IMG/VR virus record: IMGVR_UViG_3300042868_009577
Span: 1-54,385 of that record
Reading direction: 5' to 3' (one strand)
Source of the DNA: a virus
DNA: 54,385 nucleotides
In this document: piece by piece, positions 1 through 16,212 of the stretch
Position numbering within the stretch: position 1 is the first letter of the stretch
How the letters are laid out: each line of letters opens with the position of its first letter
The notes under the pieces: model-generated
What the model was told of the DNA's origin: nothing
The model's input: only the letters and a program-made list of their open reading frames with translations
Database searches by the model: none
Made by a program: the position numbers and the translations under genes

Positions 1-32
1 TCATTGAATTTAGTTTTATCTTTTTTCTTTTA

Positions 33-63
33 CAAAGATACCAATAAATATGTATATAATCAA
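33..63 (-). promoter_or_regulatory. Bacteroidota-type promoter for a gene left of the window
   Basis: Reading leftwards, TTG (61-63) is followed by exactly 20 nt and TATCTTTG (33-40), a full match to the Bacteroidota housekeeping promoter pattern TTG-N17-23-TAnnTTTG. An ATG complement lies at 2-4, about 25 nt downstream, so a minus-strand gene probably begins at the window edge. Only its start codon is visible. Confidence 0.6.
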
Positions 64-154
64 GAAAACTTAAAAAATAAAATTATTTTTTTTTAATAAA
101 TTAATGATTTACCTTATATTTTAGTAAATATTGGCCTTCAAATTGCCTTGACGA

Positions 155-162
155 TATTTATT
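155..162 (+). promoter_or_regulatory. Late-type motif TATTTATT, 3 nt before the first envelope gene
   Basis: TATTTATT sits 3 nt before the ATG at 166, the same geometry as TATTTATA before the terminase, portal and other late genes in this window. It supports 166 as the start and marks the envelope cluster as late-expressed. Confidence 0.5.
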
Positions 163-165
163 GTT

Positions 166-708
166 ATGGCAAATAATAATAGACTAAATGTGTCTCTGAT
201 ACCCATTTTTGTGGTATTAGGGTTTTTTGGGATGTATTCTTACATCGTAGATCCTTTACAGGAAACAAAGGCGGTATACATTTCTGGGGTAGAAAATAAC
301 ATCAAAATTGGTAAACTAACTAATAATAGAAGTTTAGCTTTTGGTGCTAAAAACATTTTCCAGGAAATATTACAAGATAAAGATTTTATAATTGTTGAAG
401 ACGCAAAATCAGCTGATTTAATCTTTAGTGCGGAAATACTATACTTTGATGTAAATAAAACTAAACGAAATATCTCCGTATTCCATTCTGATGTTGAAGA
501 AACGTTGGTGGTAATGAGGGGTAAGTTGAGTGATAAGTCTGGTAAAAAACTTAAGGAAGTTGTTGCCGAAGAATCTAGCTCAGAGATTTCAACATCGACA
601 TTAATAACAGACGAAGGTAGTGATAAAGTAAATCAACAAGCACTATCGTCAGCAATAAAGAAGACCTGCGAGTCTTTAATTAATAAAGCATTTTTTAATA
701 AAAAATAA
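166..708 (+). CDS. Membrane-anchored LptE/CsgG-like envelope protein
   Basis: A 180-residue protein. I chose ATG 166 over an upstream TTG at 148 because of the TATTTATT motif 3 nt before it. Residues about 8-28 form one hydrophobic segment (LIPIFVVLGFFGMYSYIV), likely a signal anchor. The rest alternates strands and helices and contains a stretch (NNRSLAFGAKNIFQEILQD, then SADLIFSAEILYFDV) that resembles the LptE / CsgG-type periplasmic fold, where such proteins assist outer-membrane assembly or secretion. No lipobox Cys is visible. The next gene starts 1 nt after the stop, so it heads a coupled envelope operon. The family assignment rests on pattern only; a generic periplasmic protein is the alternative. 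Confidence 0.5.
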   Translation: MANNNRLNVSLIPIFVVLGFFGMYSYIVDPLQETKAVYISGVENNIKIGKLTNNRSLAFGAKNIFQEILQDKDFIIVEDAKSADLIFSAEILYFDVNKTKRNISVFHSDVEETLVVMRGKLSDKSGKKLKEVVAEESSSEISTSTLITDEGSDKVNQQALSSAIKKTCESLINKAFFNKK

Positions 709-709
709 T

Positions 710-2350
710 ATGAAAAATTTAATTTTATTTATTGGGGTATTTTTAATATCTCTACCATCATTCAGTCAATTAACCGTTAATCAAACGGTAACCCCAGGTG
801 GACCATATATGGTTGGTGATACGTTAACCGTAAAATATACTGTTGATAGGGGGGTCACATTACCTCGTTATTTCTGGTTAAGATATTCATTTAACAATAA
901 AGCGTTAACAATGGTATCAAATAGTACTGTGTTTTCACAAGGTAGTTCTACTCAGACATTTTTCACTGGTTGGAATAACTTTATATTCACCCCAGCAGCA
1001 AATATTGCTGCAACCAGTTTGTACGCGCAATATCTTGCAACACCATGGGCTTATACCGCAAATAATGATTGGAATGTTGGACAAATAACAATCCAAAGGA
1101 CTGATGCCGCAATTAATGGTGATATTGCAACACAAAAATATGTGATTAAAGACCAAAATCAATATAATGATATTCATAAATTAGATTTAGCATACGCTAT
1201 TAATGACGCTTCGGCAAACATTTCACCAATAACTCGCAACGCAACTAATTTATCATTAACTGGCGTTAGTGGTAATACCTCGCAATTTAAAGTAAAAGTA
1301 TTATTCCCACAAGGTTACGGTATTTCTGACCACAATGTTCAATTAATGAAATTAAAAACAGATGGTAGTGGTGATATTGATTGGTCAAAACAACCTATTG
1401 CACAATTACCATTAGACGCTAGTGGGGAGGCTCTTTTTACAACGCAAGTTAAAGTGGGCGACTCAGTTGGTGTGTTTGTTGGGCCAGCAATGCAAAAATC
1501 ATGGATGAATAATATTGTTACAGTATCTGACGCATATAAAGCTTTCCTAGGTCATTCACAAACTGATATTGGTGGTACCGCAAACTTCTTTACTTATCCA
1601 ATTTTAGAAAAGAAAGTTGGTTTAATTACAAAAAACAAAACTGAATTTAGTGAATCGGATTCTTACTATCTATTCGCGCATGTAATGGGTATTAATGTTG
1701 ATAGTCCAGCTATGATACCTACATCGACTTCAACATCGGTAAGATGGTATAGTGGTTTATTAAATCAAAGCTGGTTAGACGGTGTTGTTAAAAATAAAGT
1801 TATTATCGATTCACCAGTAAAAGAAGTTCATGCTGTTTTTGCTTGGGGTGGTGATTTAAACTGGTCACATTCATCTGATCCATCAGTAATTGCTACAAGA
1901 ATTAGTAGTGGATTATATACAAATTCGATAAACAATAAAACATCAATGTCAACGCAGGTGATGTCTTATGTTCCAGCAGCATTAGAGACCGCGAAATTAT
2001 CGGTTGTTTCCGCTTTGGAAAATGGTAAGGTTGTATTAACAACAAACCTAACAAAAGAAGGATTAGCTGGTTTAGAAGTTATTATGGAGTATGATGAATC
2101 TAAATTACAATTAGATAACGTTGTTTTTGATAGCGGTTCAACTATAACCAATTTTTCTACACATAAAGATGGTAGATTAACATTTGGCTCTATGGATCAA
2201 TTAAAAACATCTAGAATTAAAACTGGGACACCATATAAATTAATATTCACACCTAAGGTGGCACTTACAAATACTGCAGGTTTATTCTATTTTGTTTTAT
2301 CCGATGCTGTTGATGCTAGTGGTAAGAAAATAAACTTAGTAATAGAATAA
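710..2350 (+). CDS. Secreted protein with degenerate dockerin-like and C-terminal cohesin-like modules
   Basis: 546 residues. Residues 1-19 are a signal peptide ending in SFS before Gln20, the typical Bacteroidota cleavage context. The N-terminal half is beta-rich and unrecognised. Around residues 268-325 a dockerin-like block begins with IVTVSDAYKAFLG and continues to ESDSYYLFAHVMG, but its Ca-loop aspartates are largely missing. Residues about 425-546 look like a cohesin-type beta-sandwich (GLEVIMEYDESKLQLDNV). The C-terminal half is clearly paralogous to the next gene (VTVSD, ESDxYxL, W-x-GDxNxSHS are shared). Stop and next ATG are 1 nt apart. Predicted to act outside the inner membrane, perhaps on the cell surface. 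A virion role is less likely because of the signal peptide. Confidence 0.6.
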   Translation: MKNLILFIGVFLISLPSFSQLTVNQTVTPGGPYMVGDTLTVKYTVDRGVTLPRYFWLRYSFNNKALTMVSNSTVFSQGSSTQTFFTGWNNFIFTPAANIAATSLYAQYLATPWAYTANNDWNVGQITIQRTDAAINGDIATQKYVIKDQNQYNDIHKLDLAYAINDASANISPITRNATNLSLTGVSGNTSQFKVKVLFPQGYGISDHNVQLMKLKTDGSGDIDWSKQPIAQLPLDASGEALFTTQVKVGDSVGVFVGPAMQKSWMNNIVTVSDAYKAFLGHSQTDIGGTANFFTYPILEKKVGLITKNKTEFSESDSYYLFAHVMGINVDSPAMIPTSTSTSVRWYSGLLNQSWLDGVVKNKVIIDSPVKEVHAVFAWGGDLNWSHSSDPSVIATRISSGLYTNSINNKTSMSTQVMSYVPAALETAKLSVVSALENGKVVLTTNLTKEGLAGLEVIMEYDESKLQLDNVVFDSGSTITNFSTHKDGRLTFGSMDQLKTSRIKTGTPYKLIFTPKVALTNTAGLFYFVLSDAVDASGKKINLVIE

Positions 2351-2351
2351 T

Positions 2352-4649
2352 ATGAAGAAATTATTAGTAATATGTTTTTTACTAATCTCATTTTTAGGGT
2401 TCGGACAGAGTGTATCTGCTCCGGACTCTAAGTCATTTATACCCTCCACAAACGGACAAGATGCAAGTGGGTTTGTATTGAGTGGATTTAGCTCAACATC
2501 AACTTTATTAGCGTCAATCAGTTTAGTTAATCCACCAACAAATACTACGTTCTATCTTAATACAACAACGGGTTTAACCGCAGCAAGTGGATTTACTTTA
2601 ACAGGTAATAAAACTCGTTTAGTGGTAACAGGTACAATGGCTAATATCAATAATGCATTAGCATCTTTAAAAATAACCACAGGCTCGGTAGTCGGTAATG
2701 TTCAAATATCGGTAGCAGCAACTGTTAATCCTGTTGGATTTTTCTACAATGGTGTAAATGGACACTTTTATAGACCAATATCAACAGGTACAACATACAC
2801 TGGAGCAAGAGCCGCATCGTTATTAACAACATTCAAAGGACAGACAGGGTATTTAGTAACAATAACATCGGCATCGGAAAATGCTTTTATATTTGCTAAT
2901 GTACCACAAGCTAATATATGGTTTGCGGCAACCGATGAGGTTAGAGATGGAACTTGGGTAATAGATGCTGGACCTGAAAAGGGGACGGTAATGAAAACCT
3001 CAAACGGACAAACGGCGGGTAATATTCCAGGTGTGTATAACAACTGGGCACCTGGTGAACCAAATGGTAATAATGGTAGTGAGAATTATGCGGTAACAAA
3101 TTGGAATGGTCAATCAACGTGGAATGATTTATCAAACAATTGGAATAATCCCTATATAATTGAATATGGAACTTGGACTAATCCCGATGATGCAACATTT
3201 ACTGAATTTTACACAAATTCGGTAACACACACAAACGGAGATGTTTTAACTGCAAGATTCAATTTTGATTTTGGACCTAATGTTGATGAGACTAAATTTT
3301 CAGCAAAAGCAAACACATTTGTAAATAATACATGGGGTACAACAACAAATACGTCTAGAGCAATAAGTGGATTGGGTAAAGTTGATATTACAAACGATTT
3401 GGATGCTGTAAAAGTTAATAATGGCGGTACTAGAGCAACAACAACCACTGGGGATGTAGAATGGTGTGTGATATATGATTATGACGCAATTAACCAAAGG
3501 TATAGAATTGGTATTGATAGTAGAGAGGTTAATGGGGTAGTTTCAACACCATCTACAATCACTAGTTTACAGTTATTTGATTTATGGAATGGCCCTGTAA
3601 CATTTAATTCATATGATCCAAATGGATGGACTGAAGTTTATGTTTACACATCAACTCAATTTAATTTTTCTGGTTCGTCATTTGCTTCGTTTATTAGGGC
3701 CGGAAACGGATTTTACGGTTTAAGAGCTGAATTTGCATTTACACTAATTCAATCTTTTAAACAACATGGAATTGATTTATCATACACAAATCAAACGGAT
3801 TTAAACACGTTGTATAATAGCATTGTAACTGTTTCAGATGTGTTTATAGCATTTAAGGAATTATCAAATGGTGGCATATTTGGCGATCAAAGCGGGAATG
3901 AATTTACAAATGGTATTCAGTTTATGAATGCAGATGTGGACGGTAATGGTGTGTTTAACGAATCTGATACATATAAATTGTTACAACATTTAACAGGGGT
4001 AACAACACTAACACAATATTCCGCGTTAACCTATTTGATGAAACTTTATAATAAATCGGATTACGATGCGGTCACTAAATCTAATTGGAAAACACAATTA
4101 AATTCAACAAGAAGTTTATTACCGTTTAACTTGAATAGTGGTACACTTAATAATACCTATAACGTTAGCGTGACTTGGATTGGGGATGTGAATTTATCCC
4201 ATTCGGCACAACAAACTGTTAGCTCTGTTGCTAGTAATTCTATGAGAACTATGAGTTTATCAACTAACTCAGTTTCAAATCAAATAAATGCTTACCTAAT
4301 GGGTGAAAATATTGGTGGTAAAGTCATTATAACAATATCGATAGATCCATTACAGCAAGAGTTAGTTGGAACACAATTTCAAATAAATTATGACAATACC
4401 GCGTTAAAATTTGAAAAAGTTGATTTTAAAACAAAAGGCAACCCAACAAATTTTGGTGTTGACGGGGGCACTTATATTAATTTAGGTTCATTAATTACAG
4501 ACGGATCGACATTATTAGACAAAACAACAGAATATAAATTAACATTTATTCCTCAGGTTGGTATTGAGGGGGTATTAGGTTTGACGTCATTATCTGCTAC
4601 TGATGCGGTAAATAAAGCCGGTGGTCAATTAAAAGTAAAAGTTAACTAA
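2352..4649 (+). CDS. Secreted C-type lectin protein with dockerin-like and cohesin-like modules
   Basis: 765 residues. The signal peptide ends LGFG before Gln19. Residues about 55-127 resemble the beta-sandwich repeats of Bacteroidota adhesins. Residues about 130-273 are a C-type lectin-like domain: the helix TYTGARAASLL, then TGYLVTITSASENAFI, the sugar-binding EPN at 236-238 and WND at 257-259. In animal lectins EPN goes with mannose-type ligands; that ligand preference is inference here. A dockerin-like block follows with a good calcium loop (DVDGNGVFNESD) after a VTVSD helix, and the last ~110 residues are cohesin-like. It is the intact paralogue of the preceding protein. The stop overlaps the next start (TAATG). 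Likely function: carbohydrate-binding surface protein. Confidence 0.7.
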   Translation: MKKLLVICFLLISFLGFGQSVSAPDSKSFIPSTNGQDASGFVLSGFSSTSTLLASISLVNPPTNTTFYLNTTTGLTAASGFTLTGNKTRLVVTGTMANINNALASLKITTGSVVGNVQISVAATVNPVGFFYNGVNGHFYRPISTGTTYTGARAASLLTTFKGQTGYLVTITSASENAFIFANVPQANIWFAATDEVRDGTWVIDAGPEKGTVMKTSNGQTAGNIPGVYNNWAPGEPNGNNGSENYAVTNWNGQSTWNDLSNNWNNPYIIEYGTWTNPDDATFTEFYTNSVTHTNGDVLTARFNFDFGPNVDETKFSAKANTFVNNTWGTTTNTSRAISGLGKVDITNDLDAVKVNNGGTRATTTTGDVEWCVIYDYDAINQRYRIGIDSREVNGVVSTPSTITSLQLFDLWNGPVTFNSYDPNGWTEVYVYTSTQFNFSGSSFASFIRAGNGFYGLRAEFAFTLIQSFKQHGIDLSYTNQTDLNTLYNSIVTVSDVFIAFKELSNGGIFGDQSGNEFTNGIQFMNADVDGNGVFNESDTYKLLQHLTGVTTLTQYSALTYLMKLYNKSDYDAVTKSNWKTQLNSTRSLLPFNLNSGTLNNTYNVSVTWIGDVNLSHSAQQTVSSVASNSMRTMSLSTNSVSNQINAYLMGENIGGKVIITISIDPLQQELVGTQFQINYDNTALKFEKVDFKTKGNPTNFGVDGGTYINLGSLITDGSTLLDKTTEYKLTFIPQVGIEGVLGLTSLSATDAVNKAGGQLKVKVN

Positions 4650-5542
4650 TGAAAAAACTATTAATAATTCTGTCACTAATTTCGATAACATTTGTTACAA
4701 ATGCACAGATACAAAAACCCGACACGTTGCAACTATCCGCAAAAGAATTATTTGGGGAAAGTGATGATTGGAATGATGTGGGTATATTACAATCCTATGT
4801 TAATTTTTCAAAGGATGTCTTATCATCATCAAACCTTTCGGTTGGTATAATTGGTAGGCAGGTTTCCACAACACTTAATTTAGGGTATCAGAAATCATCA
4901 AAAAACGGGCAATGGGGACACTCATTTGCAGCATCTATAAATCCTATATGGGACTATTATGGTGTTGGTTATGGCCTAAGTAGAAACACAGAAAAAAGAA
5001 CTACCACAATACAAACATTTTATTCTACGGACTTTGACTTTCAAAAAGATATTAACCTATCATTTATTGATGTGTTTAGAACCGAAAAATGGGGGACATT
5101 TGGTTATAGTTTAACAGCATCAAAATCATTTTGGGGAACATACCAAGGTGAATGGGAAGGAAGATACACGGTGGATGTGAATGGAGATTTTTTAGATTTA
5201 ATATATCCACAAATGCCAGCATCATCCGAACTTACTTATAGAGGTATGGTGATGTATACGTACACACTAAAAACAAAGAGGGTAGACATTTCGCCACAGG
5301 TATTTGCTATGAGCGATATATACAAAGTATTTAAAGATGGCACCGAATCAGATTTGGCATATGTAGATGACTTCAATTTGGACTTGTATTATGGGCTATC
5401 TATGAACTGGAAAATAACTAAAAGATTTGTATTGAATACTAATCTTAGATACAACACAACTTGGGATAAGTTATCAGAATCCGTAGGATATAAAAAGGCA
5501 AATCCAATCCTATTTATGATAGGAACAAACTTTAAATTCTAA
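4649..5542 (+). CDS. Outer-membrane beta-barrel protein
   Basis: 297 residues. The signal peptide ends TNA before Gln20. The mature part consists of alternating amphipathic strands rich in Tyr, Trp and Gly, and the protein ends in Phe (IGTNFKF), typical of outer-membrane barrels recognised by the BAM complex. It shares blocks with the barrel encoded at 9577-10995: (V/L)xISPQ(V/I)FxM, GxFGYxL and K(I/L)(T/S)KRF. Both ends overlap the neighbouring genes by 1 nt (TAATG), so it is translationally coupled to the lectin protein and the following lipoprotein. It could anchor or export the surface proteins encoded upstream; a porin-like or receptor-blocking role is also possible. Confidence 0.7.
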   Translation: MKKLLIILSLISITFVTNAQIQKPDTLQLSAKELFGESDDWNDVGILQSYVNFSKDVLSSSNLSVGIIGRQVSTTLNLGYQKSSKNGQWGHSFAASINPIWDYYGVGYGLSRNTEKRTTTIQTFYSTDFDFQKDINLSFIDVFRTEKWGTFGYSLTASKSFWGTYQGEWEGRYTVDVNGDFLDLIYPQMPASSELTYRGMVMYTYTLKTKRVDISPQVFAMSDIYKVFKDGTESDLAYVDDFNLDLYYGLSMNWKITKRFVLNTNLRYNTTWDKLSESVGYKKANPILFMIGTNFKF

Positions 5543-5886
5543 TGAAAAAATTATTATTAATATCATTTATTTTATTGGTTGGGTGTACAAAACCAGAATT
5601 ACCGTTACCTGACGTTATAGCAAAGGATGACATATTTGCCATTAATGAAAGTACTGTGATTAATGGCCAATCGATATATTTTAATTTACCGGTTGCCGGG
5701 ATATATACATTGACATTAATAGATAAAACAACCGGGCAAGTCATTAGCCGAGAAAGATTTACGGGCCAAAATGGTGAAAATGTTAAGAAAATTTATACCA
5801 AAAGTATTTCGGGCAAGTATTTATATTTATTACTAGAAGATATTGATAAAAAAGAACTAAATAAAACAACATTAATAATTAAGTAA
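5542..5886 (+). CDS. Lipoprotein with a C-terminal beta-sandwich
   Basis: 114 residues. The N-terminus has a charged start, a hydrophobic core and the lipobox LVGC, so Cys15 should be lipidated by host Lgt/Lsp. The remaining ~95 residues are a small beta-sandwich (AGIYTLTLIDKTTGQVIS, then SGKYLYLLLED) that resembles the C-terminal sorting domains of type IX secretion substrates or an Fn3-like fold. It is similar to the next lipoprotein, suggesting duplication. It starts inside the stop codon of the barrel gene. No enzymatic motif is visible; a structural or partner-binding role is inferred. Confidence 0.65.
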   Translation: MKKLLLISFILLVGCTKPELPLPDVIAKDDIFAINESTVINGQSIYFNLPVAGIYTLTLIDKTTGQVISRERFTGQNGENVKKIYTKSISGKYLYLLLEDIDKKELNKTTLIIK

Positions 5887-5887
5887 A

Positions 5888-6259
5888 ATGAAAAAAACGG
5901 TAATATTCGCGTTAATTGTGGTTGGGTTAGTAGGTTGTTCAAAGGATGATATTTTTGAACTACCAACTCAGCAAGTTACTCCAGCCCTACAAATAAAAAA
6001 TTCGGTTGGTATTAAGCTAGAAACTGCCTTTGTAACTAATGAGGTTGCAATGAACGTAAAGATTGATGTTGAGCAACCAGTAACAATAAAGATTTTTGAT
6101 ATTTCCAATAAAGTTGTCTCTAAGGAGGTTGTAACGGTTAAAGCTGGTGATAATATACTAAAAGTATATACTTCAGCATTACCATCATCAGCATATAGAA
6201 TCGGATTATTTGATTCTAAAAACAACCAATTAGGAATTACAGATTTTAATAAACTATAA
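5888..6259 (+). CDS. Lipoprotein with a candidate surface-export signal (CSKDD)
   Basis: 123 residues. The lipobox LVGC places lipidated Cys at 17. It is followed by SKDDIFE, an acidic stretch close to the lipoprotein export signals that send lipoproteins to the outer face of Bacteroidota outer membranes. Residues about 65-120 (VTIKIFDISNKVVSKEV, then SSAYRIGLFDSKNN) resemble a type IX secretion C-terminal domain fold and align with the preceding lipoprotein. It is the last gene of the first tightly packed block; 17 nt follow before the next gene. Surface exposure is predicted; the function is unknown. Confidence 0.65.
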   Translation: MKKTVIFALIVVGLVGCSKDDIFELPTQQVTPALQIKNSVGIKLETAFVTNEVAMNVKIDVEQPVTIKIFDISNKVVSKEVVTVKAGDNILKVYTSALPSSAYRIGLFDSKNNQLGITDFNKL

Positions 6260-6274
6260 ATAAAAATATAAATA
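6255..6274 (+). promoter_or_regulatory. Two TATAAATA boxes just before the gene at 6277
   Basis: TATAAATA occurs at 6255-6262 and again at 6267-6274, 2 nt before the ATG. This is the orientation of the classical T4 late promoter, opposite to the TATTTATA motif seen elsewhere in this window. In AT-rich DNA this could be chance. Confidence 0.3.
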
Positions 6275-6276
6275 TT

Positions 6277-6996
6277 ATGGCAGACAAAAACGGAGACGGA
6301 ATAGTATATCATCGCTCAGATTGCGGTGACAATTATGTAAGAATGTATGGTAATGGTGGAGATTGGGATGGTTCAATATGTGAAACATGGGGACTTAGTT
6401 CTAGAGCAATAGCATATATTCACGCTCATCCTGAAATAAATCATAGAATTGAAGATGTAACTGGTAGAGAGTGGAATGAAGAAGTTGCGCCAATAATTGA
6501 TTTGGTTGAAAAACAAATAGTATCTGAAATTAAAGAAGGGTATGAAGAAGTAAAAGAAGGTGTAATAGATGCATACCAATGGGCAGATAAAAATGCTTGT
6601 AATATAGCGGTAACCGCAGCTATTGGATTGGGTTGTGCAGCAGCATTTGCACCAGAACAACCTGAAGGTGCAGTAGCATCAACCACATTATCATTTATGG
6701 CACAACCAATTCTTTATACTGCAGATAAAGCAGCTAAAGTGGTTGTAGTAATGGCAATGACTGAAATTATAACAGAAGGATTTTTAGCAATACCATACGT
6801 TAGTGATAGTATTGACCATACACTATTAAAAAATATAATTTCAAATTGTTTAGGTAAAAGTTTAGATTCTGCAGAGTTATGGGCAACACCGGCTGGAGTT
6901 GGTATTGCAATTGGAGCGGCATTTGCACCAGTTATTGCAGATTTGATATGTACAAAAACTTGTCCTGAAGGATTTACTAAAGCGTTTGGTGTATAA
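6277..6996 (+). CDS. Unknown protein with two hydrophobic helices and paired cysteines
   Basis: 239 residues, not recognised. The N-terminal ~75 residues are polar and rich in Asp, Gly and Trp. A helical, charged linker follows at about 85-115. Then come two Ala/Gly-rich hydrophobic stretches: NIAVTAAIGLGCAAAFAP at about 110 and GVGIAIGAAFAPVIADLIC near 210, separated by a moderately hydrophobic helical region. Several cysteines lie next to the hydrophobic segments. There is no signal peptide. It lies between lipoprotein genes and small membrane-protein genes, which suggests membrane insertion or pore formation, but no family can be named. Confidence 0.5.
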   Translation: MADKNGDGIVYHRSDCGDNYVRMYGNGGDWDGSICETWGLSSRAIAYIHAHPEINHRIEDVTGREWNEEVAPIIDLVEKQIVSEIKEGYEEVKEGVIDAYQWADKNACNIAVTAAIGLGCAAAFAPEQPEGAVASTTLSFMAQPILYTADKAAKVVVVMAMTEIITEGFLAIPYVSDSIDHTLLKNIISNCLGKSLDSAELWATPAGVGIAIGAAFAPVIADLICTKTCPEGFTKAFGV

Positions 6997-7057
6997 TATT
7001 AAACATTTGAGGTATTTGGGTGGTAATTAAATAAACTAAAAATTAAAAACAAATAAA

Positions 7058-7384
7058 ATGTCAGAAGAAGTAGAAAATGCAAATGACGGAACTTTATCCG
7101 GATTAAAAAAGACTATTATCGGTGTAATAACAACAGCTGTAATGGGATTAGGTACCTGGGGTATAACTCAAATAACAGGTGGTGGTGATGATCCAGCACC
7201 AGTACAGCAAGCCGCACCAGTAATTAATATCACTAACTCTAATCAGCAACAACAATCAGCTGGAGGGGGTAAAACGGTGATTATTAAAGAAAAGGCCGGG
7301 TCAGCCCAACCAGCAGCTCAACCAGCCGCTAAGCCTAAGAAAAAAGAAGGTGATGAGTTTAAAGAAGAAGCACCAAAGTGGTAA
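7058..7384 (+). CDS. Small single-span membrane protein with a Pro/Gln/Lys-rich tail
   Basis: 108 residues. After a short acidic N-terminus, residues about 18-41 form one membrane segment (TIIGVITTAVMGLGTWGITQI). The C-terminal ~65 residues are low complexity: QQQQ, AQPAAQPAAKPKKK and an acidic/basic end. This layout resembles periplasm-spanning spanin-like or TonB-like proteins, but no catalytic or lipobox residue is visible. An A-rich 62-nt leader precedes it. It lies in a run of four small membrane-protein genes (7058-8554), so a role in lysis or envelope bridging is plausible but unproven. Confidence 0.5.
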   Translation: MSEEVENANDGTLSGLKKTIIGVITTAVMGLGTWGITQITGGGDDPAPVQQAAPVINITNSNQQQQSAGGGKTVIIKEKAGSAQPAAQPAAKPKKKEGDEFKEEAPKW

Positions 7385-7412
7385 TAATTTAAAGTTAAAC
7401 TAGAATATTAAA

Positions 7413-8021
7413 ATGAAAGAAGAAGCAGGTGGTTTTAAGGAGCTATTAGGTAATATGATGAAACGTAGATGGTTCATCACTGCCATCGTATTAGGTGGAT
7501 TTATGATAATCATTATGGGGATATTTGGGGCAATCCTAAATAAATCCGCAATTGAAGGAGAATGGAAAGAACTTCTACTATTGTTATTGGGTGCTTTCAT
7601 TGGTTCTTATGGTAAAATCATTGACTATTGGTTTAGTGATACCGATAAGGATAAAATGTTAGTTCAGAAAATGGATGAGGAAGATGGCACATCATTAAGT
7701 AATACTGCCGATTTACCAAATAATCCAATAGTTCCAACCAATGTATTTCCATTAGTTTTACCAACAAGTGAGGAAGTTAGTGGGGAAGTTGGACAAACTG
7801 TCCAAGCAACTGTCCAACCTAAAGTAGGTGTTGAAGTGGATGAAGATGGTGACGGTGTAATGGATGGTTTAGATTTCGATGGTGACGGTAAAATCGATGA
7901 ATATTTTGCACACAGGCAATGTGAACACGTTTGGGGTGACTTAGACGGTGATGGAACTGAAGAATGTCTAAAGTGTGGTAAAGTTAAAGACGAATATGCT
8001 GAGATGCATATGGAAGGATAA
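7413..8021 (+). CDS. Two-span membrane protein with calcium-loop and zinc-ribbon tail
   Basis: 202 residues. Two hydrophobic segments (about 20-42, WFITAIVLGGFMIIIMGIFGAI, and 53-67, LLLLLLGAFIGSYG) resemble a holin-like hairpin. A polar linker leads to three DxDxDG loops (DEDGDGVMDGLD, DFDGDGKIDEYF, DLDGDGTEE) of the thrombospondin-type-3/dockerin/EF-hand kind. The last loop lies inside a likely zinc ribbon, C-x-H before it and C-x-x-C after it. The combination of membrane hairpin, calcium loops and zinc site in one small phage protein is unusual. It could sense or hold divalent ions at the envelope; whether it is a holin is uncertain. Confidence 0.5.
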   Translation: MKEEAGGFKELLGNMMKRRWFITAIVLGGFMIIIMGIFGAILNKSAIEGEWKELLLLLLGAFIGSYGKIIDYWFSDTDKDKMLVQKMDEEDGTSLSNTADLPNNPIVPTNVFPLVLPTSEEVSGEVGQTVQATVQPKVGVEVDEDGDGVMDGLDFDGDGKIDEYFAHRQCEHVWGDLDGDGTEECLKCGKVKDEYAEMHMEG

Positions 8022-8052
8022 TAAACACAAAAAAAAACAAAAAACAAAAATT

Positions 8053-8322
8053 ATGGGATTTTTAAAAGATTTATTTAACGACAACAACACAATTAATGAA
8101 AAATCAGTTGTTGGATTCGCGTCATTCATTATGATGGTAATATCATTGGTTGTAGACTTGGTGACAGGTTGGTTGGGGAAAGAGTTACTTATCAATGAAT
8201 TTATTTTCGATGGGTTTTTAGTTATTACTCTTGGTTCATTTGGTATTGCATCCGTTGATAAATGGATAAATAACAAAAATTCAAATAAAAAAGACGATAG
8301 CCAAGATGTTATCGAAGGTTAA
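8053..8322 (+). CDS. Small two-span membrane protein, holin-like
   Basis: 89 residues from ATG 8053. The frame is open upstream to 7975, but that part overlaps the preceding gene and the sequence just before 8053 is A-rich like other leaders here, so the shorter form is preferred. A short amphipathic N-terminus (MGFLKDLFNDN) is followed by two membrane segments (about 18-38 and 48-66) and a charged tail. This matches the general layout of class II holins and of small phage membrane proteins. No endolysin gene is visible nearby, so the holin call is tentative. Confidence 0.5.
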   Translation: MGFLKDLFNDNNTINEKSVVGFASFIMMVISLVVDLVTGWLGKELLINEFIFDGFLVITLGSFGIASVDKWINNKNSNKKDDSQDVIEG

Positions 8323-8332
8323 AATTAAATAT

Positions 8333-8554
8333 ATGACTATTAATTTAGAAAAAATAAAAGAAGCAATGGCTTCAACCATGTTAATGATGGCGATGGCTTG
8401 GGTAATATTTGCGTTATCATTTCAAGTATACTTTCTTTTCTTACACGTAACAGATAATAACGAAGAGATAAGTAGAATCACCAATGAGTTGACGATCAGA
8501 ATAGATGGCCGATTTGTAGACAATCCTAAAAATGTGTTCTATAATGGAAAGTAA
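8333..8554 (+). CDS. Small single-span membrane protein
   Basis: 73 residues from ATG 8333; the frame extends upstream to 8306 inside the previous gene, but that extension is basic and unlikely. Residues about 10-38 form one long hydrophobic helix (MLMMAMAWVIFALSFQVYFLFL), with a polar C-terminal tail of ~35 residues. It lies between the two-span protein and the CsgG-like gene; the next start is 1 nt after its stop. Possibly an accessory lysis or envelope protein; not recognised. Confidence 0.45.
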   Translation: MTINLEKIKEAMASTMLMMAMAWVIFALSFQVYFLFLHVTDNNEEISRITNELTIRIDGRFVDNPKNVFYNGK

Positions 8555-8555
8555 T

Positions 8556-9275
8556 ATGAAAAAAATATTTTTATTATTATTCATCACACTTTTTAGCACA
8601 TCGTTATTTGCCCAAACTATTGGTAAAACGCAAACAGAACAATATAAAGCATCGTTTGAGACTGCAATTGATATTTCGCGTTTCTTAGATTATGACGGTA
8701 AACAAATTCCAATTCAGATCTTAAAAGCTGGAATTAGTGATGAAATGTACGAGATGTATCCCGAACTTAAAGAAAAAAGAGTAGGTTTAGGCGTTGCAAA
8801 TATTTCAATGGAATATTTAGAAAACTTAAATCGTTTTAAGTTTACAGAAGATAAAACGGAAATTAAAAACCGAATGGTTAAACAATTCCAAGCATCTCAA
8901 GCTGGTATTTCTGAAAATAAATTAGATGGTAGAGGTAAGATCAACTTAGCTGAATATTTTGTGACAATTGAATGTTATGATTATTCTGTATCAGAAGATG
9001 AGACTGTAAACTTAAAAGACGGTGTTAAAAATCTAATGGTGACTCGTATCGGTTTACAAGTTAGATTTACTAACGCTGAGACTGGTGTTGTTTTTTCAGG
9101 ATCTGGTCTTGGTGAAGCAAAAACAACTAGAGAGTTAACATTATTATCAGACGCAACCGTTGATGAAGTTAAGTTTAACCAATCAACTATTTCAATAGCA
9201 ACAAAAAAAGCTTTAGACATTGCGTGTGCTAGAATATTAGACAGAATGATTAAAAAAGGAATTTTTGAAAAATAA
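8556..9275 (+). CDS. CsgG-family-like exported protein
   Basis: 239 residues from ATG 8556. Eight in-frame codons lie upstream, but the hydrophobic signal peptide begins at MKKIFLLLFITLF and ends LFA before Gln19, so 8556 is the start. The mature part has the alpha/beta pattern of the CsgG family (curli secretion channel): a central MVTRIGLQVRFTNAETGVV strand pair and a C-terminal helix with IATKKALDIACARILDRMI. No lipobox Cys is present, unlike true CsgG, so it may be a periplasmic relative. It overlaps the next gene by 1 nt. Role inferred: export or assembly of the surface proteins encoded in the same cluster. Confidence 0.55.
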   Translation: MKKIFLLLFITLFSTSLFAQTIGKTQTEQYKASFETAIDISRFLDYDGKQIPIQILKAGISDEMYEMYPELKEKRVGLGVANISMEYLENLNRFKFTEDKTEIKNRMVKQFQASQAGISENKLDGRGKINLAEYFVTIECYDYSVSEDETVNLKDGVKNLMVTRIGLQVRFTNAETGVVFSGSGLGEAKTTRELTLLSDATVDEVKFNQSTISIATKKALDIACARILDRMIKKGIFEK

Positions 9276-9577
9276 TGAAAAACGTAATTTTAACTACACT
9301 ACTATTGCTGACGTTTGGTTGTGCACCGGTTAGGTATGTTTATGTTGATCAAAAAGATTCAGTGATAAGAAAACAAAGAGTGGTGTATGATAACATGTAT
9401 GTTCCATCACCATTTTTTTTTAATTATAATTGGGGGCCACCGTTTTATACACCAATAATAATACAAAGACAAAGACCTGTCTTAAGGCAAGCACCCGTTG
9501 TTACCCCTAATAGACCAAGTAGATCACAACCAAGACTAAGTAGACCGATTCCGCCAAGAGTGCCGAAAAATAGATAA
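9275..9577 (+). CDS. Small Pro/Arg-rich lipoprotein
   Basis: 100 residues. The hydrophobic N-terminus ends in LTFGC, an acceptable lipobox with lipidated Cys at 16. The mature part starts with APVRYVYVDQ, then is aromatic (SPFFFNYNWGPPFYTP) and ends with a basic, proline-rich tail (PSRSQPRLSRPIPPRVPKNR). No acidic export signal follows the Cys, so it is more likely to face the periplasm, where the basic tail could touch peptidoglycan. It is coupled at both ends by TAATG overlaps to the CsgG-like and barrel genes. Confidence 0.6.
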   Translation: MKNVILTTLLLLTFGCAPVRYVYVDQKDSVIRKQRVVYDNMYVPSPFFFNYNWGPPFYTPIIIQRQRPVLRQAPVVTPNRPSRSQPRLSRPIPPRVPKNR

Positions 9578-10995
9578 TGAAAAAATGGTTAATAAGTTTA
9601 TCAATAATTCTTCTGTCGTTATTCGTTAATAAAGCGATAGGCCAAACTTATACCCAAACATTTGTAGATAGGTGTACCGGAGAACGTAAAGTTGCGACAA
9701 CCACAATGATTAATGGGAATGCTACCGTATCTTTCTATAATCAAGTTAGAACGTTTAGCCCTATCGAAGTTCAAACCGGTGTAGTTCAGAGTTGGTTACT
9801 TACAACTAAAGCTACCTACGAGGCTATTACGTGTCCTGTAATCAATAATCCAATAGTACAGCAAGCGGTAACAAACGCGGCCGCACAAGCAGCTAGTAAT
9901 GCCGCAGCTCAAGCGGCTAGTTCTGCTGCATCTAGTGCTGCCTCAAGTTCTGCTGCAACAGCGGCAAGCTCGTCAGCAAGTAGTGCTGCTAGTTCATCCG
10001 CAAGTAGCGCGGCTAGTTCATCGGCAGGTAGTGCAGCGGGTTCATCAGCAAGTGGCGCCGCTAGCTCACCACCGCCGGCGTCATCGAGTTCAAGTGGTTC
10101 TGGCGGTTCTAGTAGTTCATCATCGTCAAGCACAAAAACTGAAGCTAAAACAGAAAGTAAAACAGAAAGTAAAACAGAAAGTAAAACAGAAAGTAAATCA
10201 GAGACAAAAGAAGAATCAAAAACCGAAAGTAAAAGCGAAGAAAAAAAGGAAGAATCAAAAACAGAGGAAAAAAAGGAAGAATCTAAAGAAGAAAAAAAGG
10301 AAGAAAAAAAGGAAGAAAAGAAAAAAGAAAAAGCTGCGGTGTCGAATCCTATGTTGTTATCGTCTGATTTGTCAACAATTGAGACACCAGAGGGTAGGTG
10401 GTTACAATCCGCAACTATTGGTGTATCCAAATCATCATTAATGGGTGATAAGAGTTATTCCGCAAATACTGTTATAATGAGCGATCTGAAAACTTTTATT
10501 GTTACTGGTGGATTCACTAAAATGGATTTTTCGAATGGTAAATTAAACGCAATACATTCATATTCATCATCTTTTGCTTATTTGAATGGTAATTACATGA
10601 ATTTATTAGGTTATACCTGGATAAAACCAACACAGAAGAAAGGTGTGTTTGGATATAATTTGGGATTAATAAATCTATTATTAAAAAATTCAAAAAGTGG
10701 GTATGACTACAACACTTCAACATCAGTTGTGGCGTTTTGGACCAAACCATATCAATACAGTAAAAAATTAACCATATCGCCACAGATATTCACAATGTTT
10801 GCTCCAATATCTTGGAATAGTGTGGCGGGCACGTCCACAATAAACAAAAATATGGGATATCTTATTGGTTCATCATTTGATTACAAACTAAGTAAAAGAT
10901 TTGGGCTTAGTATCAATTATAAACTAAGTGGTAATACTGCAGATGGGTCACCATTATTAAGTAATGTCTTGATTGGATCAAGAATGATTTTATAA
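9577..10995 (+). CDS. Outer-membrane barrel with long Ala/Ser and Lys/Glu low-complexity linker
   Basis: 472 residues. The signal peptide ends KAIG before Gln23. Residues 23-100 form a small beta-rich domain with two Cys (33 and 86). Residues 101-184 are almost entirely Ala, Ser and Gly, and 185-251 are Lys, Glu, Ser and Thr in short repeats. Residues about 260-472 form a beta-barrel-like domain paralogous to the one at 4649-5542 (LTISPQIFTM, KLSKRFGLSINY). It closes the envelope cluster. The disordered linker could span periplasm or reach outwards from the barrel. The barrel call is fair; the function is unknown. Confidence 0.6.
   Translation: MKKWLISLSIILLSLFVNKAIGQTYTQTFVDRCTGERKVATTTMINGNATVSFYNQVRTFSPIEVQTGVVQSWLLTTKATYEAITCPVINNPIVQQAVTNAAAQAASNAAAQAASSAASSAASSSAATAASSSASSAASSSASSAASSSAGSAAGSSASGAASSPPPASSSSSGSGGSSSSSSSSTKTEAKTESKTESKTESKTESKSETKEESKTESKSEEKKEESKTEEKKEESKEEKKEEKKEEKKKEKAAVSNPMLLSSDLSTIETPEGRWLQSATIGVSKSSLMGDKSYSANTVIMSDLKTFIVTGGFTKMDFSNGKLNAIHSYSSSFAYLNGNYMNLLGYTWIKPTQKKGVFGYNLGLINLLLKNSKSGYDYNTSTSVVAFWTKPYQYSKKLTISPQIFTMFAPISWNSVAGTSTINKNMGYLIGSSFDYKLSKRFGLSINYKLSGNTADGSPLLSNVLIGSRMIL
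10147..10194 (+). repeat. Four perfect tandem copies of a 12-nt unit
   Basis: AAAACAGAAAGT is repeated four times without mismatch inside the barrel gene, encoding K-T-E-S repeats. Being a multiple of 3, copy-number change would lengthen or shorten the linker without a frameshift. Confidence 0.85.
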
Positions 10996-13657: not shown

Positions 13658-15676
13658 CTAAATAATTTTACTTTTAATCAGTAATTTATCTTTATATACC
13701 AATTTTATTGACTCATTTTCTTTTATGACATCTTTTAGTATCTCATCACTAATAAAATCTTCACATAGTGATTGTATAATTCGTTTTATTGGTCTGGCGC
13801 CAAATTCAATCTCTTTATTCTTAGAAAGGATTTCATTGGTAACGCTTTGATCAAATGAAATAAGATACTTTTTATCTTTTAATCTTTTAACCAACTTGTC
13901 TAACTCTAATTTTATAATCCTTTTTAGCGATTCTTCATTTAATGGATTAAATAAAATAATATCATCAATTCTATTTAAAAATTCCGGATTAAATTGCTGT
14001 TTTAAAGCTTTTTGAATCATTGTTTTTTTAACAAATTCTTTTTGTTCATTACTACTATTAGTTGAAAAGCCAACGCCTCCACCAAATTCGGAAACTTTCT
14101 TAGCGCCAACGTTTGAAGTCATAATGATTAAGGTATTAGCAAAATCAACTTTTCTACCAAAAGAATCTGTTAGATGACCTTCGTCTAAAATTTGTAATAA
14201 TAAATTGAATACATCTTTATGTGCTTTTTCAATTTCATCAAATAAAATAACACTAAATGGGTTGTTTTTAACTTTTTCGGTTAACTGACCACCTTCATCA
14301 TAACCAACATAACCAGGAGGCGAACCAATAAGTCTTGATACTGAATGTTTTTCCATAAATTCACTCATATCAACCCTGATTACTTTGTCTTGTGAACCAA
14401 AAATTTGTTCCGCTAATGTCTTGGCTAAATAAGTTTTACCAACACCGGTTGATCCTAGAAATATAAATGATCCAATTGGTTTGGCACCATCTTTAATGCC
14501 AACTCGATTTCTACGAATGGCTTTAGAAATGGACGCAATAGCATCTTCTTGCCCAATAACTCTAGTAGATAAGTTGGTTTCAAGATTTAATAAGTCTTTA
14601 GTTTCTTTACCATCTATTTTAAAAATTGGGACTCCGGTCATTGATGATACTATGGCGTAAACATCTTCTGTTGAAACACTTATTAAATTATTTTTTTGTT
14701 TGTTTAACCATTTATCTTTTTCATCTTCTAACTTGGTTTGTAACTTCTTTTCTTCATCTCTTAGTTTTGCGGCATGTTCGTAGTCTTGAGATTTAACAAC
14801 TTCAATTTTTTTAGTTTTCAAAATCTCAATTTCAGTGTTTAACCTTTCTATTGATTCCGGTATTTTTACCGCGACCCTTTTCTCGGACCCTAATTCATCT
14901 AGGACATCAATTGCTTTATCTGGAAATTGTTTATCACTCATATATCTACCAGATAATTTAACAATAGTTTCAACCACATCTTGTTCATAACTAACCTTAT
15001 GGAAGTTTTGATATGAATCTTTTAAATTATTTAAAATTTCAACTGTTTCTTCTTCCGTAGGTTCAGTTAGGATAATTTTTTGAAACCTTCTAACTAGTGC
15101 CCCATCTTTTTCGATATGTTTTTTAAATTCATCAAAAGTTGTTGCGCCAATACATTGTATTTCACCTCTAGCTAACGCTGGCTTTAAGATATTAGCCGCG
15201 TCCATAGATCCACTAGCATTACCAGCTCCAACCATCGTATGCAATTCGTCTATAAAAATAACAACATCAGTATTTTCTTGCAATTCATGTAGAATAGCTT
15301 TGATTCTTTCTTCAAATTGACCACGATATTTTGTTCCAGCAACGAGCGATGTTAAATCTAACGAGACAATTCGTTTATCCACTAAACTAGGCGGGCATTC
15401 CCCGTTAACTATCATTAATGCCAATTTTTCAACAAGCGCTGATTTACCAACACCAGCTTCACCGACAATAACCGCATTATTTTTCTTTTTTCTTGATAAA
15501 ATTTGTGCGATTCTTTTAACCTCTTTGTCCCTACCAATAATAGGGTCTATCCTACCTTCCTTAGCCAATTTATTTAAATCTCTAGAAAAGTTATCTAATA
15601 TTGGTGTATTAGAAAGATTTTTTCTAGCTTTTGTGTTTGGTTTTGGGGAATCTTCGTAACTAAAATCTACAGACAT
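13658..15676 (-). CDS. ClpC-like AAA+ protein unfoldase lacking the N domain
   Basis: 672 residues against roughly 810-850 for host ClpC. Two complete AAA+ modules are visible: Walker A1 GEAGVGKS (72-79), Walker B1 VIFIDE (139-144), Walker A2 GSTGVGKT (408-415), Walker B2 ILFDE (477-481). A short middle segment has a UVR-like helix (SQDYEHAAKLRDEEKKL, ~297-312), typical of ClpC and not ClpB. VGF at 535-537, in the loop after GGG, matches the ClpP-docking tripeptide position. The N-terminal substrate/adaptor domain is missing: only ~30 residues precede the first module. It probably unfolds proteins for host ClpP. A host-type promoter and 8-bp repeats precede it, and a small heat-shock gene diverges from it. 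Confidence 0.88.
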   Translation of the reverse strand: MSVDFSYEDSPKPNTKARKNLSNTPILDNFSRDLNKLAKEGRIDPIIGRDKEVKRIAQILSRKKKNNAVIVGEAGVGKSALVEKLALMIVNGECPPSLVDKRIVSLDLTSLVAGTKYRGQFEERIKAILHELQENTDVVIFIDELHTMVGAGNASGSMDAANILKPALARGEIQCIGATTFDEFKKHIEKDGALVRRFQKIILTEPTEEETVEILNNLKDSYQNFHKVSYEQDVVETIVKLSGRYMSDKQFPDKAIDVLDELGSEKRVAVKIPESIERLNTEIEILKTKKIEVVKSQDYEHAAKLRDEEKKLQTKLEDEKDKWLNKQKNNLISVSTEDVYAIVSSMTGVPIFKIDGKETKDLLNLETNLSTRVIGQEDAIASISKAIRRNRVGIKDGAKPIGSFIFLGSTGVGKTYLAKTLAEQIFGSQDKVIRVDMSEFMEKHSVSRLIGSPPGYVGYDEGGQLTEKVKNNPFSVILFDEIEKAHKDVFNLLLQILDEGHLTDSFGRKVDFANTLIIMTSNVGAKKVSEFGGGVGFSTNSSNEQKEFVKKTMIQKALKQQFNPEFLNRIDDIILFNPLNEESLKRIIKLELDKLVKRLKDKKYLISFDQSVTNEILSKNKEIEFGARPIKRIIQSLCEDFISDEILKDVIKENESIKLVYKDKLLIKSKII

Positions 15677-15843: not shown

Positions 15844-16212
15844 ATGATTAGATTATTTAAAGACCCATTTTTCGATGTTCTTGATGAACTATCTAGCTCA
15901 AGTCATAATATATTTGAGCCCAAAACAAAAATTAATAAAACTGAAGATGGATACAAGGTTTTTGTATCGGTGCCAGGATTAACAAAAGATGATTTAAAAA
16001 TCACATTAAAAGAAGGTATTTTAAAAATATCTTATGACAATGAAACTAAAACTGATACCAACCATTTTGTTACTAAATTCAATAAATCATATACCATTCC
16101 AGACAATGTGAATGAAAAAGAGATTGTTGGTAAAGTGGAAAATGGTTTATTGGAAATAACCTTACCAATAGGTAAAAAGAAACCCGTCGAAAGATTTATT
16201 AGTTTAAATTAG
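15844..16212 (+). CDS. hsp20: Small heat-shock protein, Hsp20/alpha-crystallin family
   Basis: 122 residues. The alpha-crystallin domain is clear at about 28-110: TEDGYKVFVSVPGLTKDDLKI, then the EGILKISY strand, and ENGLLEITLPI near the end (the conserved G-x-L motif followed by the last strand). The N-terminal arm is short (~25 residues) and begins MIRLFKDPFFDVLDEL. These proteins form oligomers that hold unfolded proteins. Hsp20 genes occur in many T4-like marine phages. It diverges from the clpC-like gene across the repeat array, so the two are probably co-regulated as a protein-quality pair. A terminator follows 4 nt after the stop. Confidence 0.92.
   Translation: MIRLFKDPFFDVLDELSSSSHNIFEPKTKINKTEDGYKVFVSVPGLTKDDLKITLKEGILKISYDNETKTDTNHFVTKFNKSYTIPDNVNEKEIVGKVENGLLEITLPIGKKKPVERFISLN

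Follow-up and report, generated by a model that had tools for sequence, protein, structure and literature searches.

Cohesin-dockerin pairs are among the tightest protein contacts known and have been described from cellulose degraders. The closest described assemblies are the cellulosome scaffoldins, among them the C-terminus of CipA (PDB codes 4fl4 and 3kcp) and the adaptor scaffoldins. Here we analyse two genes, ORF1 and ORF2 (ORF, open reading frame), at positions 710 to 4649 of a 54,385-base virus record (IMG/VR IMGVR_UViG_3300042868_009577), the whole of which is called the window below. Their products share cohesin folds with the scaffoldins, and ORF1 has the order cohesin, X-like domain, dockerin; unlike scaffoldins, they are phage-encoded, their dockerin appears to be permuted and the presumed cargo is a lectin; the likeness is one of domain order only (root mean square deviation, RMSD, 12.5). 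Non-cellulosomal cohesins, from Clostridium perfringens (2jh2, 2vo8) and Archaeoglobus (2xdh), are among the best fold matches; these are cellular modules, whereas the window holds a phage pair with dockerins of its own. Our reading, to which we assign a probability of about one half, is that the phage encodes a cohesin-dockerin scaffold, to which ORF1 and ORF2 belong and which shows lectins on infected cells.

Among phages, 'sibling capture' has been proposed for pelagimyophages with curli genes (PMC7029224), and phage-encoded cargo of the type IX secretion system has been reported for Cryophage (T9SS; PMC7468147). Curli pore phages and Cryophage resemble a lectin scaffold in their phage-encoded export of surface proteins; the words cohesin, dockerin and lectin are absent from the Cryophage paper. 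In the open-licence literature we found no report on phage cohesins or dockerins, permuted dockerins or phage scaffolds. A cultured comparison is Flavobacterium phage immuto, whose gp013-gp018 share with the window the operon order, a lectin, a cohesin and a protein, gp017, to which the window protein at 8556-9275 is 53% identical. Immuto differs from the window in spreading the modules over three genes and in carrying a T9SS tail on its cohesin protein, gp015.

Cohesin folds and the putative split dockerin

Homologues were collected from viral contigs with ORF2 as query (117 stretches, the best 80 of which were used, giving 78 loci), with ORF1 (64 of 79) and with an alignment of ORF2 sequences (252 of 280, best 80 used). 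The ORF1 and ORF2 query loci yielded 135 full-length ORF1-like frames (87 unique) and 115 ORF2-like frames (73 unique). With 13 frames of deviating length left out, clustering gave 69 ORF1 and 66 ORF2 representatives, aligned per family, to which the column counts below refer. Wherever a locus contains the two genes, in 119 of 119 cases with 80 unique pairs, they are neighbours in the same orientation, while ORF1 stands alone in 17 loci and ORF2 in 5; several loci per contig enter these counts, and the loci are therefore not independent phages. The modules of the pair are as follows.

710..2350, + strand: ORF1, secreted protein of 546 residues with signal peptide (by eye), cohesin 1, immunoglobulin (Ig)/X-like domain, putative permuted dockerin and cohesin 2
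764..1273, + strand: ORF1 cohesin 1, residues 19-188 (VIA Z 13.1, RMSD 2.3, 131 residues aligned to 1g1k_A; cohesins alone in the top rows)
1277..1489, + strand: ORF1 Ig/X-like domain, residues ~190-260 (DSSP strands; 4fl4_I and 3kcp_A alignments)
1493..1699, + strand: ORF1 dockerin-like core, comprising the loop 1 rear half IVTVSD ending at D274, a helix, a degenerate loop 2 (D317) and a helix
1850..1873, + strand: ORF1 split loop 1, front half GDLNWSHS at residues 381-388 (column counts)
1988..2347, + strand: ORF1 cohesin 2, residues 427-546, assigned by Pfam Cohesin and homology to the ORF2 cohesin
2352..4649, + strand: ORF2, secreted protein of 765 residues with signal peptide (by eye), beta domain, C-type lectin, beta domain, putative permuted dockerin and cohesin
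2730..3182, + strand: ORF2 C-type lectin domain with EPN and WND, residues 127-277 (Pfam Lectin_C, VIA)
3801..4007, + strand: ORF2 dockerin-like core, residues 484-552 (Dockerin_1 E 0.051 over 492-547; helices 494-507, 521-527 and 537-548)
3933..3968, + strand: ORF2 intact calcium loop 2, DVDGNGVFNESD, residues 528-539 (column counts)
4182..4205, + strand: ORF2 split loop 1, front half GDVNLSHS at residues 611-618 (G611, D612, N614, S616, H617 and S618 in 66/66)
4278..4646, + strand: ORF2 C-terminal cohesin, residues 643-765 (VIA match at 640-765, Z 14.4, RMSD 2.1, 125 residues aligned to 6kgf_C)

AlphaFold2 models of ORF1 and ORF2 (mean pLDDT 87.6 and 82.1, respectively) were compared with the PDB using Foldseek, which placed cohesins at the top for both proteins. 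VIA-align, a second examination of Foldseek's own matches, gave a cohesin fold, a nine-strand jelly roll, for the C-terminus of ORF2 and for the N-terminal domain of ORF1. The first-pass annotation, made from the DNA letters, had proposed for both proteins a block resembling dockerin and, at the C-terminus, a cohesin-like domain, and this pairing holds: ORF1 and ORF2 are 28% identical over ORF1 residues 265-543, which cover these parts (E 1.1e-13). The C-terminal domain of ORF1, not separately resolved by VIA, is assigned as a cohesin from its homology to ORF2 and from Pfam, where Cohesin matches 24 of the 69 family members (E up to 1, best 3.7e-6; residues 445-518 in the window member). The chains 4fl4_I and 3kcp_A, which we take to be of cohesin-X-dockerin content, were aligned by VIA-align over ORF1 residues 19..384 and 20..327 at an RMSD of 12.5, pointing in the models to a similar order of domains rather than to one rigid body. 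The top match in a viral library (E 5.4e-22) was entitled 'Secretion system C-terminal sorting domain [uncultured Caudovirales phage]'.

The cohesin binding face had been singled out in advance as a point on which the cohesin proposal could fail. It was assessed by comparing the sheet 8-3-6-5, which we take to be the one facing dockerin in known complexes, with the sheet 9-1-2-7-4, strands being numbered by order. In ORF1 the mean column entropy of the former was 0.38 and that of the latter 0.75 (p 0.007); in ORF2 the two values were 0.96 and 1.38 (p 0.0055), the p values coming from 10,000 permutations and being uncorrected for burial or descent. The putative dockerin-facing sheet is thus the better conserved one in both proteins.

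The dockerin-like blocks do not have the classical order of two contiguous calcium loop-helix repeats: loop 1 is split, and the native window score lies below threshold. In both families the loop 1 preceding IVTVSD lacks its front half, and a segment GD[VLI][ND]xSHS lies about 110 residues downstream, its G, D, S, H and S being invariant in 69/69 ORF1 and 66/66 ORF2 sequences. The front halves comprise D382-N384-S386 in ORF1 and D612-N614-S616 in ORF2, and the rear halves D274 and D496. Within the ORF1 segment G381, D382, L383, S386, H387 and S388 occur in 69/69, with N384 as Asn in 39 and Asp in 30, and W385 as Trp in 61, Phe in 7 and Tyr in 1. Joined end to end, DVNLSH and IVTVSD form what reads as a 12-residue loop of dockerin type.

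This was assessed quantitatively through Dockerin_1 bit scores for native, re-joined and scrambled-front-half sequences, against a cut-off of 22.9. The three scores were 19.0, 27.0 and 18.6 for ORF2; 18.3, 28.5 and 21.1 for sequence L250; 20.9, 28.9 and 22.1 for L227; 18.5, 26.8 and 22.5 for L226; and none, 19.0 and none for L070, which stays under the cut-off when re-joined. For L057 the native score of 22.8 rose to 30.8. The re-joined form thus outscored the native and scrambled forms in each of the five sequences with a scrambled control, and ORF2, L057, L250, L227 and L226 exceeded 22.9 bits once re-joined. The effect is specific as to register in the two sequences tested, where only the 6+6 join attained the cut-off: L227 scored 22.0 (5+6), 22.4 (7+6) and 21.3 (8+6), and L250 scored 19.6 (5+6) and 21.3 (7+6). 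When different ten-residue pieces taken from the L227 and L250 proteins stood in place of the front half, the scores were 17.3 to 20.7 bits, the control pieces, like the scrambled halves, being few and picked by hand. From these sequence patterns we infer closure in space of the two halves of loop 1 and an EF-hand pair as the fold of the block; the permuted dockerin would probably be calcium-dependent.

Loop 2 differs between the two proteins. The first-pass annotation had credited ORF2 with a good calcium loop, and its residues are indeed retained, D528, F535, E537 and D539 in 66/66, with position 530 Asp in 55 and Asn in 11 and position 532 Asn in 54, Asp in 11 and Ser in 1. The same annotation had most loop aspartates lost from ORF1. 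This is right for loop 2, whose first two calcium ligands are gone in 69/69 (position 1 is I or V; position 3 is K, L, N, R, T or I), but not for D274 and D317, both present in 69/69 (helices 272-283, 297-304 and 315-325), nor for the conserved split loop 1. It had also missed the N-terminal cohesin fold of ORF1, the splitting, as opposed to absence, of loop 1, and the C-type lectin of ORF2.

That lectin domain scores above the Pfam cut-off (Lectin_C, E 1.8e-5, 25.9 bits against 22.6), and its fold was recovered by VIA over residues 127-274 (Z 14.2, RMSD 2.0, 118 residues aligned). The sugar motif, E236-P237-N238 with W257-N258-D259, is present in 66/66; an EPN motif would lead one to expect a lectin for mannose, N-acetylglucosamine or fucose.

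Relatives in immuto, other phages and cellular genomes

The source of the window is a large freshwater phage, and the record is a fragment of a longer genome. Its major capsid protein (28336-30069) is closest to those of uncultured phages, with isolate matches in immuto, a Microcystis phage and Rhodothermus phage RM378; these matches mark the window as a fragment of a T4-like phage with a probable Bacteroidota host. Baltic Flavobacterium phages are treated in PMC7077304. A tblastn search of isolate phages with ORF1 and ORF2 returned zero matches, although immuto belongs to the set searched. Eighteen large contigs (141-289 kb) each hold exactly two matches to the module shared by ORF1 and ORF2, with Cohesin above the Pfam cut-off in 8/18 and Dockerin_1 in 1/18.

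In immuto, gp013 is annotated as 'lectin C-type domain-containing' and gp015 as 'cohesin domain-containing'. Pfam finds Lectin_C in gp013 (3e-15), whose tail is dockerin-like by eye, and Cohesin (5.9e-9) with Por_Secre_tail (2.4e-8) in gp015. The C-terminal end of gp014 is a split dockerin, reading ALTTAD ... NPNQANGITISD ... GDVNGTG; a pattern made for gp014 matches 12 of 20 sequences. Immuto thus has its modules over three proteins, lectin-dockerin, cohesin-X-dockerin and cohesin with T9SS tail, a set that looks more like cargo, adaptor and anchor than like a homopolymer. Homology links the lectins of gp013 and ORF2 (hhalign E 9.4e-18); at profile level the gp015 cohesin part matched the shared module weakly (40% probability). 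As a separate observation, gp013 and gp014 (L222:10527-12689) each have one canonical and one altered calcium loop (gp013 ends in GYNN, and loop 2 of gp014 starts with NPN), changes that are possibly reciprocal.

Related phages vary the arrangement. Single chains of 634-658 residues in L226, L248 and L250 carry Cohesin and T9SS tail above cut-off with a sub-threshold dockerin, and L227 has T9SS tail and dockerin, Cohesin not being among the matches listed. Of 25 records, 6 have Por_Secre_tail (PF18962) above cut-off; these six are all of immuto type, and the count for window type is 0 of 19. A search with the fused scaffold matched 154 of 198 genomes, among the rows listed via the T9SS tail, and is uninformative on the scaffold itself. 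Among 19 unique gp013-like proteins, EPN..WND occurs in 12, the C-terminal tail in all 19 and an intact loop 2, by a strict pattern, in 15. A GEVED domain takes the lectin's place in L227, one of the seven without the lectin motif. This variation beside a constant tail argues for cargo being swapped while the dockerin-like tail is kept. In L249:11220-12965, L250:6695-8386 and L242:2365-4032 a Laminin_G_3 domain seems to be inserted inside the C-type lectin, the EPN/WND part following it.

Split dockerins also occur in cells. The string GIKIGDVNG, which we take to be a motif of Bacteroidota secreted proteins, was used as query and found 92 stretches in public genomes, with titles nearly all from Saprospirales or other Bacteroidota. 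In 70 of 81 translated matches the half-loop and loop 2 lie upstream, separated from the motif by an insert of 56-69 residues, and in just one of those 70 is a normal loop 1 front half in place. These Saprospirales secreted proteins (L255-L334) resemble the phage pair in having the same half-loop, loop 2, insert and then GDVNG, and differ from it in being cellular. Five of six Saprospirales-type split-dockerin genomes searched have 9 to 23 cohesin matches each. A Chitinophagales metagenome-assembled genome (that of L301) has a frame of 2455 residues with many cohesin matches in series (G021:C19:30413-35010), scaffoldin-like in appearance and from Bacteroidota. The ORF1 family was found in 0 of 395 Bacteroidota genomes, in a scan without positive control, and the shared module gave 45 pattern matches in cellular genomes, of which 0 were confirmed.

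Operon neighbours and the candidate anchor

ORF1 and ORF2 belong to a + strand operon (148-10995), most of whose products have signal peptides or lipoboxes by eye. The following neighbours were annotated, homologue counts being out of 143 sequences (142 loci plus the window).

4649..5542, + strand: outer-membrane-type protein, an operon member in some of the relatives, beta-barrel by eye and no Pfam match (homologues 57/143)
5542..5886, + strand: small lipoprotein, lipobox by eye (homologues 116/143)
5888..6259, + strand: small lipoprotein with mature start C-S-K-D-D, a surface-export-type signal; candidate surface anchor
7058..7384, + strand: small membrane protein, immuto gp016 counterpart (family and operon position)
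8556..9275, + strand: conserved secreted protein, gp017-like (53% identity to immuto gp017; family alignment)
9577..10995, + strand: secreted low-complexity protein, immuto gp018 counterpart (operon order), with a C-terminal beta-barrel-like part by eye

In Capnocytophaga, C-X-K-(D/E)2-X is reported as the optimal surface export signal (PMC5080379). The lipobox followed by C-x-K-[DE]-[DE] occurs in 24 of 58 unique members of the 5888-6259 family, and the window protein has weak Pfam matches to DUF3244 (0.0017) and Por_Secre_tail (0.076). That this lipoprotein anchors the scaffold is a guess.

The protein at 8556-9275 had been labelled CsgG-like by eye, a label now dropped: PF03783 was found in 0 of 5 records, and a PDB profile search returned no CsgG chain. 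Near its homologue in L021, L035, L050 and L054 there is a repeated operon insert with frames of ~825 and 398 residues. The product of 7413-8021 is a small membrane protein with aspartate-rich repeats, DEDGDGVMDGLDFDGDGKIDEY, calcium-binding in appearance (homologues 105/143). Beyond the operon, a Clp-type ATPase (13658-15676) and a small heat-shock protein (15844-16212) were recognised by eye. Pfam matched no carbohydrate-degrading enzyme in the ten operon proteins scanned, and in this respect the locus is not a cellulosome.

Proposed role and its alternatives

Under the lectin scaffold that we favour, ORF1 and ORF2 would be produced in the course of infection and leave the host cell by export, and cohesins on one chain would bind permuted dockerins on another. 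The earlier suggestion of a cohesin and a dockerin-type module in one chain stands as regards their co-occurrence, and binding between chains is plausible. A cohesin-dockerin interaction between the scaffold modules is likely. The ORF2 lectin would thereby be displayed, probably on the outer surface of an infected Bacteroidota cell. The anchor in the immuto branch would be the cohesin with its T9SS tail; the window's branch lacks that tail, and the anchor there would probably be one of the adjacent small lipoproteins. The displayed lectin, of mannose or N-acetylglucosamine type, may glue the infected cell to neighbours or to a glycan matrix, so that it bursts beside new hosts, or may instead mask receptors against superinfection; sibling capture and superinfection exclusion are both purposes that we deduce.

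Several results weigh against such a scaffold. The Pfam matches of the window are weak, Cohesin (PF00963) at E 0.064 and Dockerin_1 (PF00404) at E 0.051, both under the curated cut-offs; since Pfam alone is sub-threshold, the assignment of cohesin and dockerin derives from relatives and folds. Dockerin_1 matched neither the ORF1 block, be it native or re-joined, nor re-joined immuto gp014. Comparison of the ORF1 family with gp014 by hhalign aligned the signal peptide alone, and their relation therefore rests on gene order and architecture. The T9SS sorting domain PF18962 has 0 matches in the window record. Lastly, for a different phage with curli genes, Melnitz, clumping was reportedly sought and none seen (PMC9004378).

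The best-surviving alternative, although an improbable one, is that the domains are sturdy sandwiches only and that ORF1 and ORF2 have a role in the periplasm or in lysis, alongside the small membrane proteins and the conserved gp017-like protein. Several small membrane proteins do lie in the operon, and a part in regulating lysis has been proposed for phage-encoded curli pores (PMC9004378). However, the gp017 family had no CsgG match in the Pfam and PDB profile searches, and the conserved binding sheet and loops, the swapped cargo and the T9SS tails of relatives point outside the cell.

Somewhat less probable again is that the pair are virion components, or are acquired by virions after lysis, the cohesin-dockerin-held lectins helping the particle to stick to glycans. 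Phage particles commonly carry lectin, Ig-like and other carbohydrate-binding domains. Yet both proteins have signal peptides, relatives carry a T9SS tail, and the genes sit among those for secreted proteins and lipoproteins, outside the structural block; furthermore, two shared-module matches per record in 18 records mean that no tail protein detectably carries the module.

The first-pass idea that ORF2 molecules link up head to tail by way of their own cohesin and dockerin, with ORF1 as a degenerate cap, is the least probable, and its cap part is not supported, for although both modules do occur in a single chain and loop 2 of ORF1 is lost in 69/69, ORF1 retains its split loop 1 (Asp in 69/69) and has two cohesin-like domains, so that an adaptor fits better, the immuto modules lie on separate proteins, and loop 2 of gp014 (NPNQANGITISD) is partly altered too in a set without a chain-forming partner.

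A wider proposal is decidedly more tentative than the scaffold itself: that Bacteroidota phages equip the infected cell with a lectin scaffold, cellulosome-like and calcium-dependent, anchored by the host T9SS or by surface lipoproteins and held together by a permuted dockerin previously unremarked and common in free-living Bacteroidota, and that they do so to keep siblings close before lysis. If true, a conserved phage set with lectin cargo and a T9SS anchor would be a new viral route to remodelling of the host surface. The split-loop dockerin would provide a sequence rule for spotting overlooked cohesin-dockerin systems in Bacteroidota, and the cultured pair of immuto and Flavobacterium sp. 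LMO8 makes the scaffold idea directly testable.

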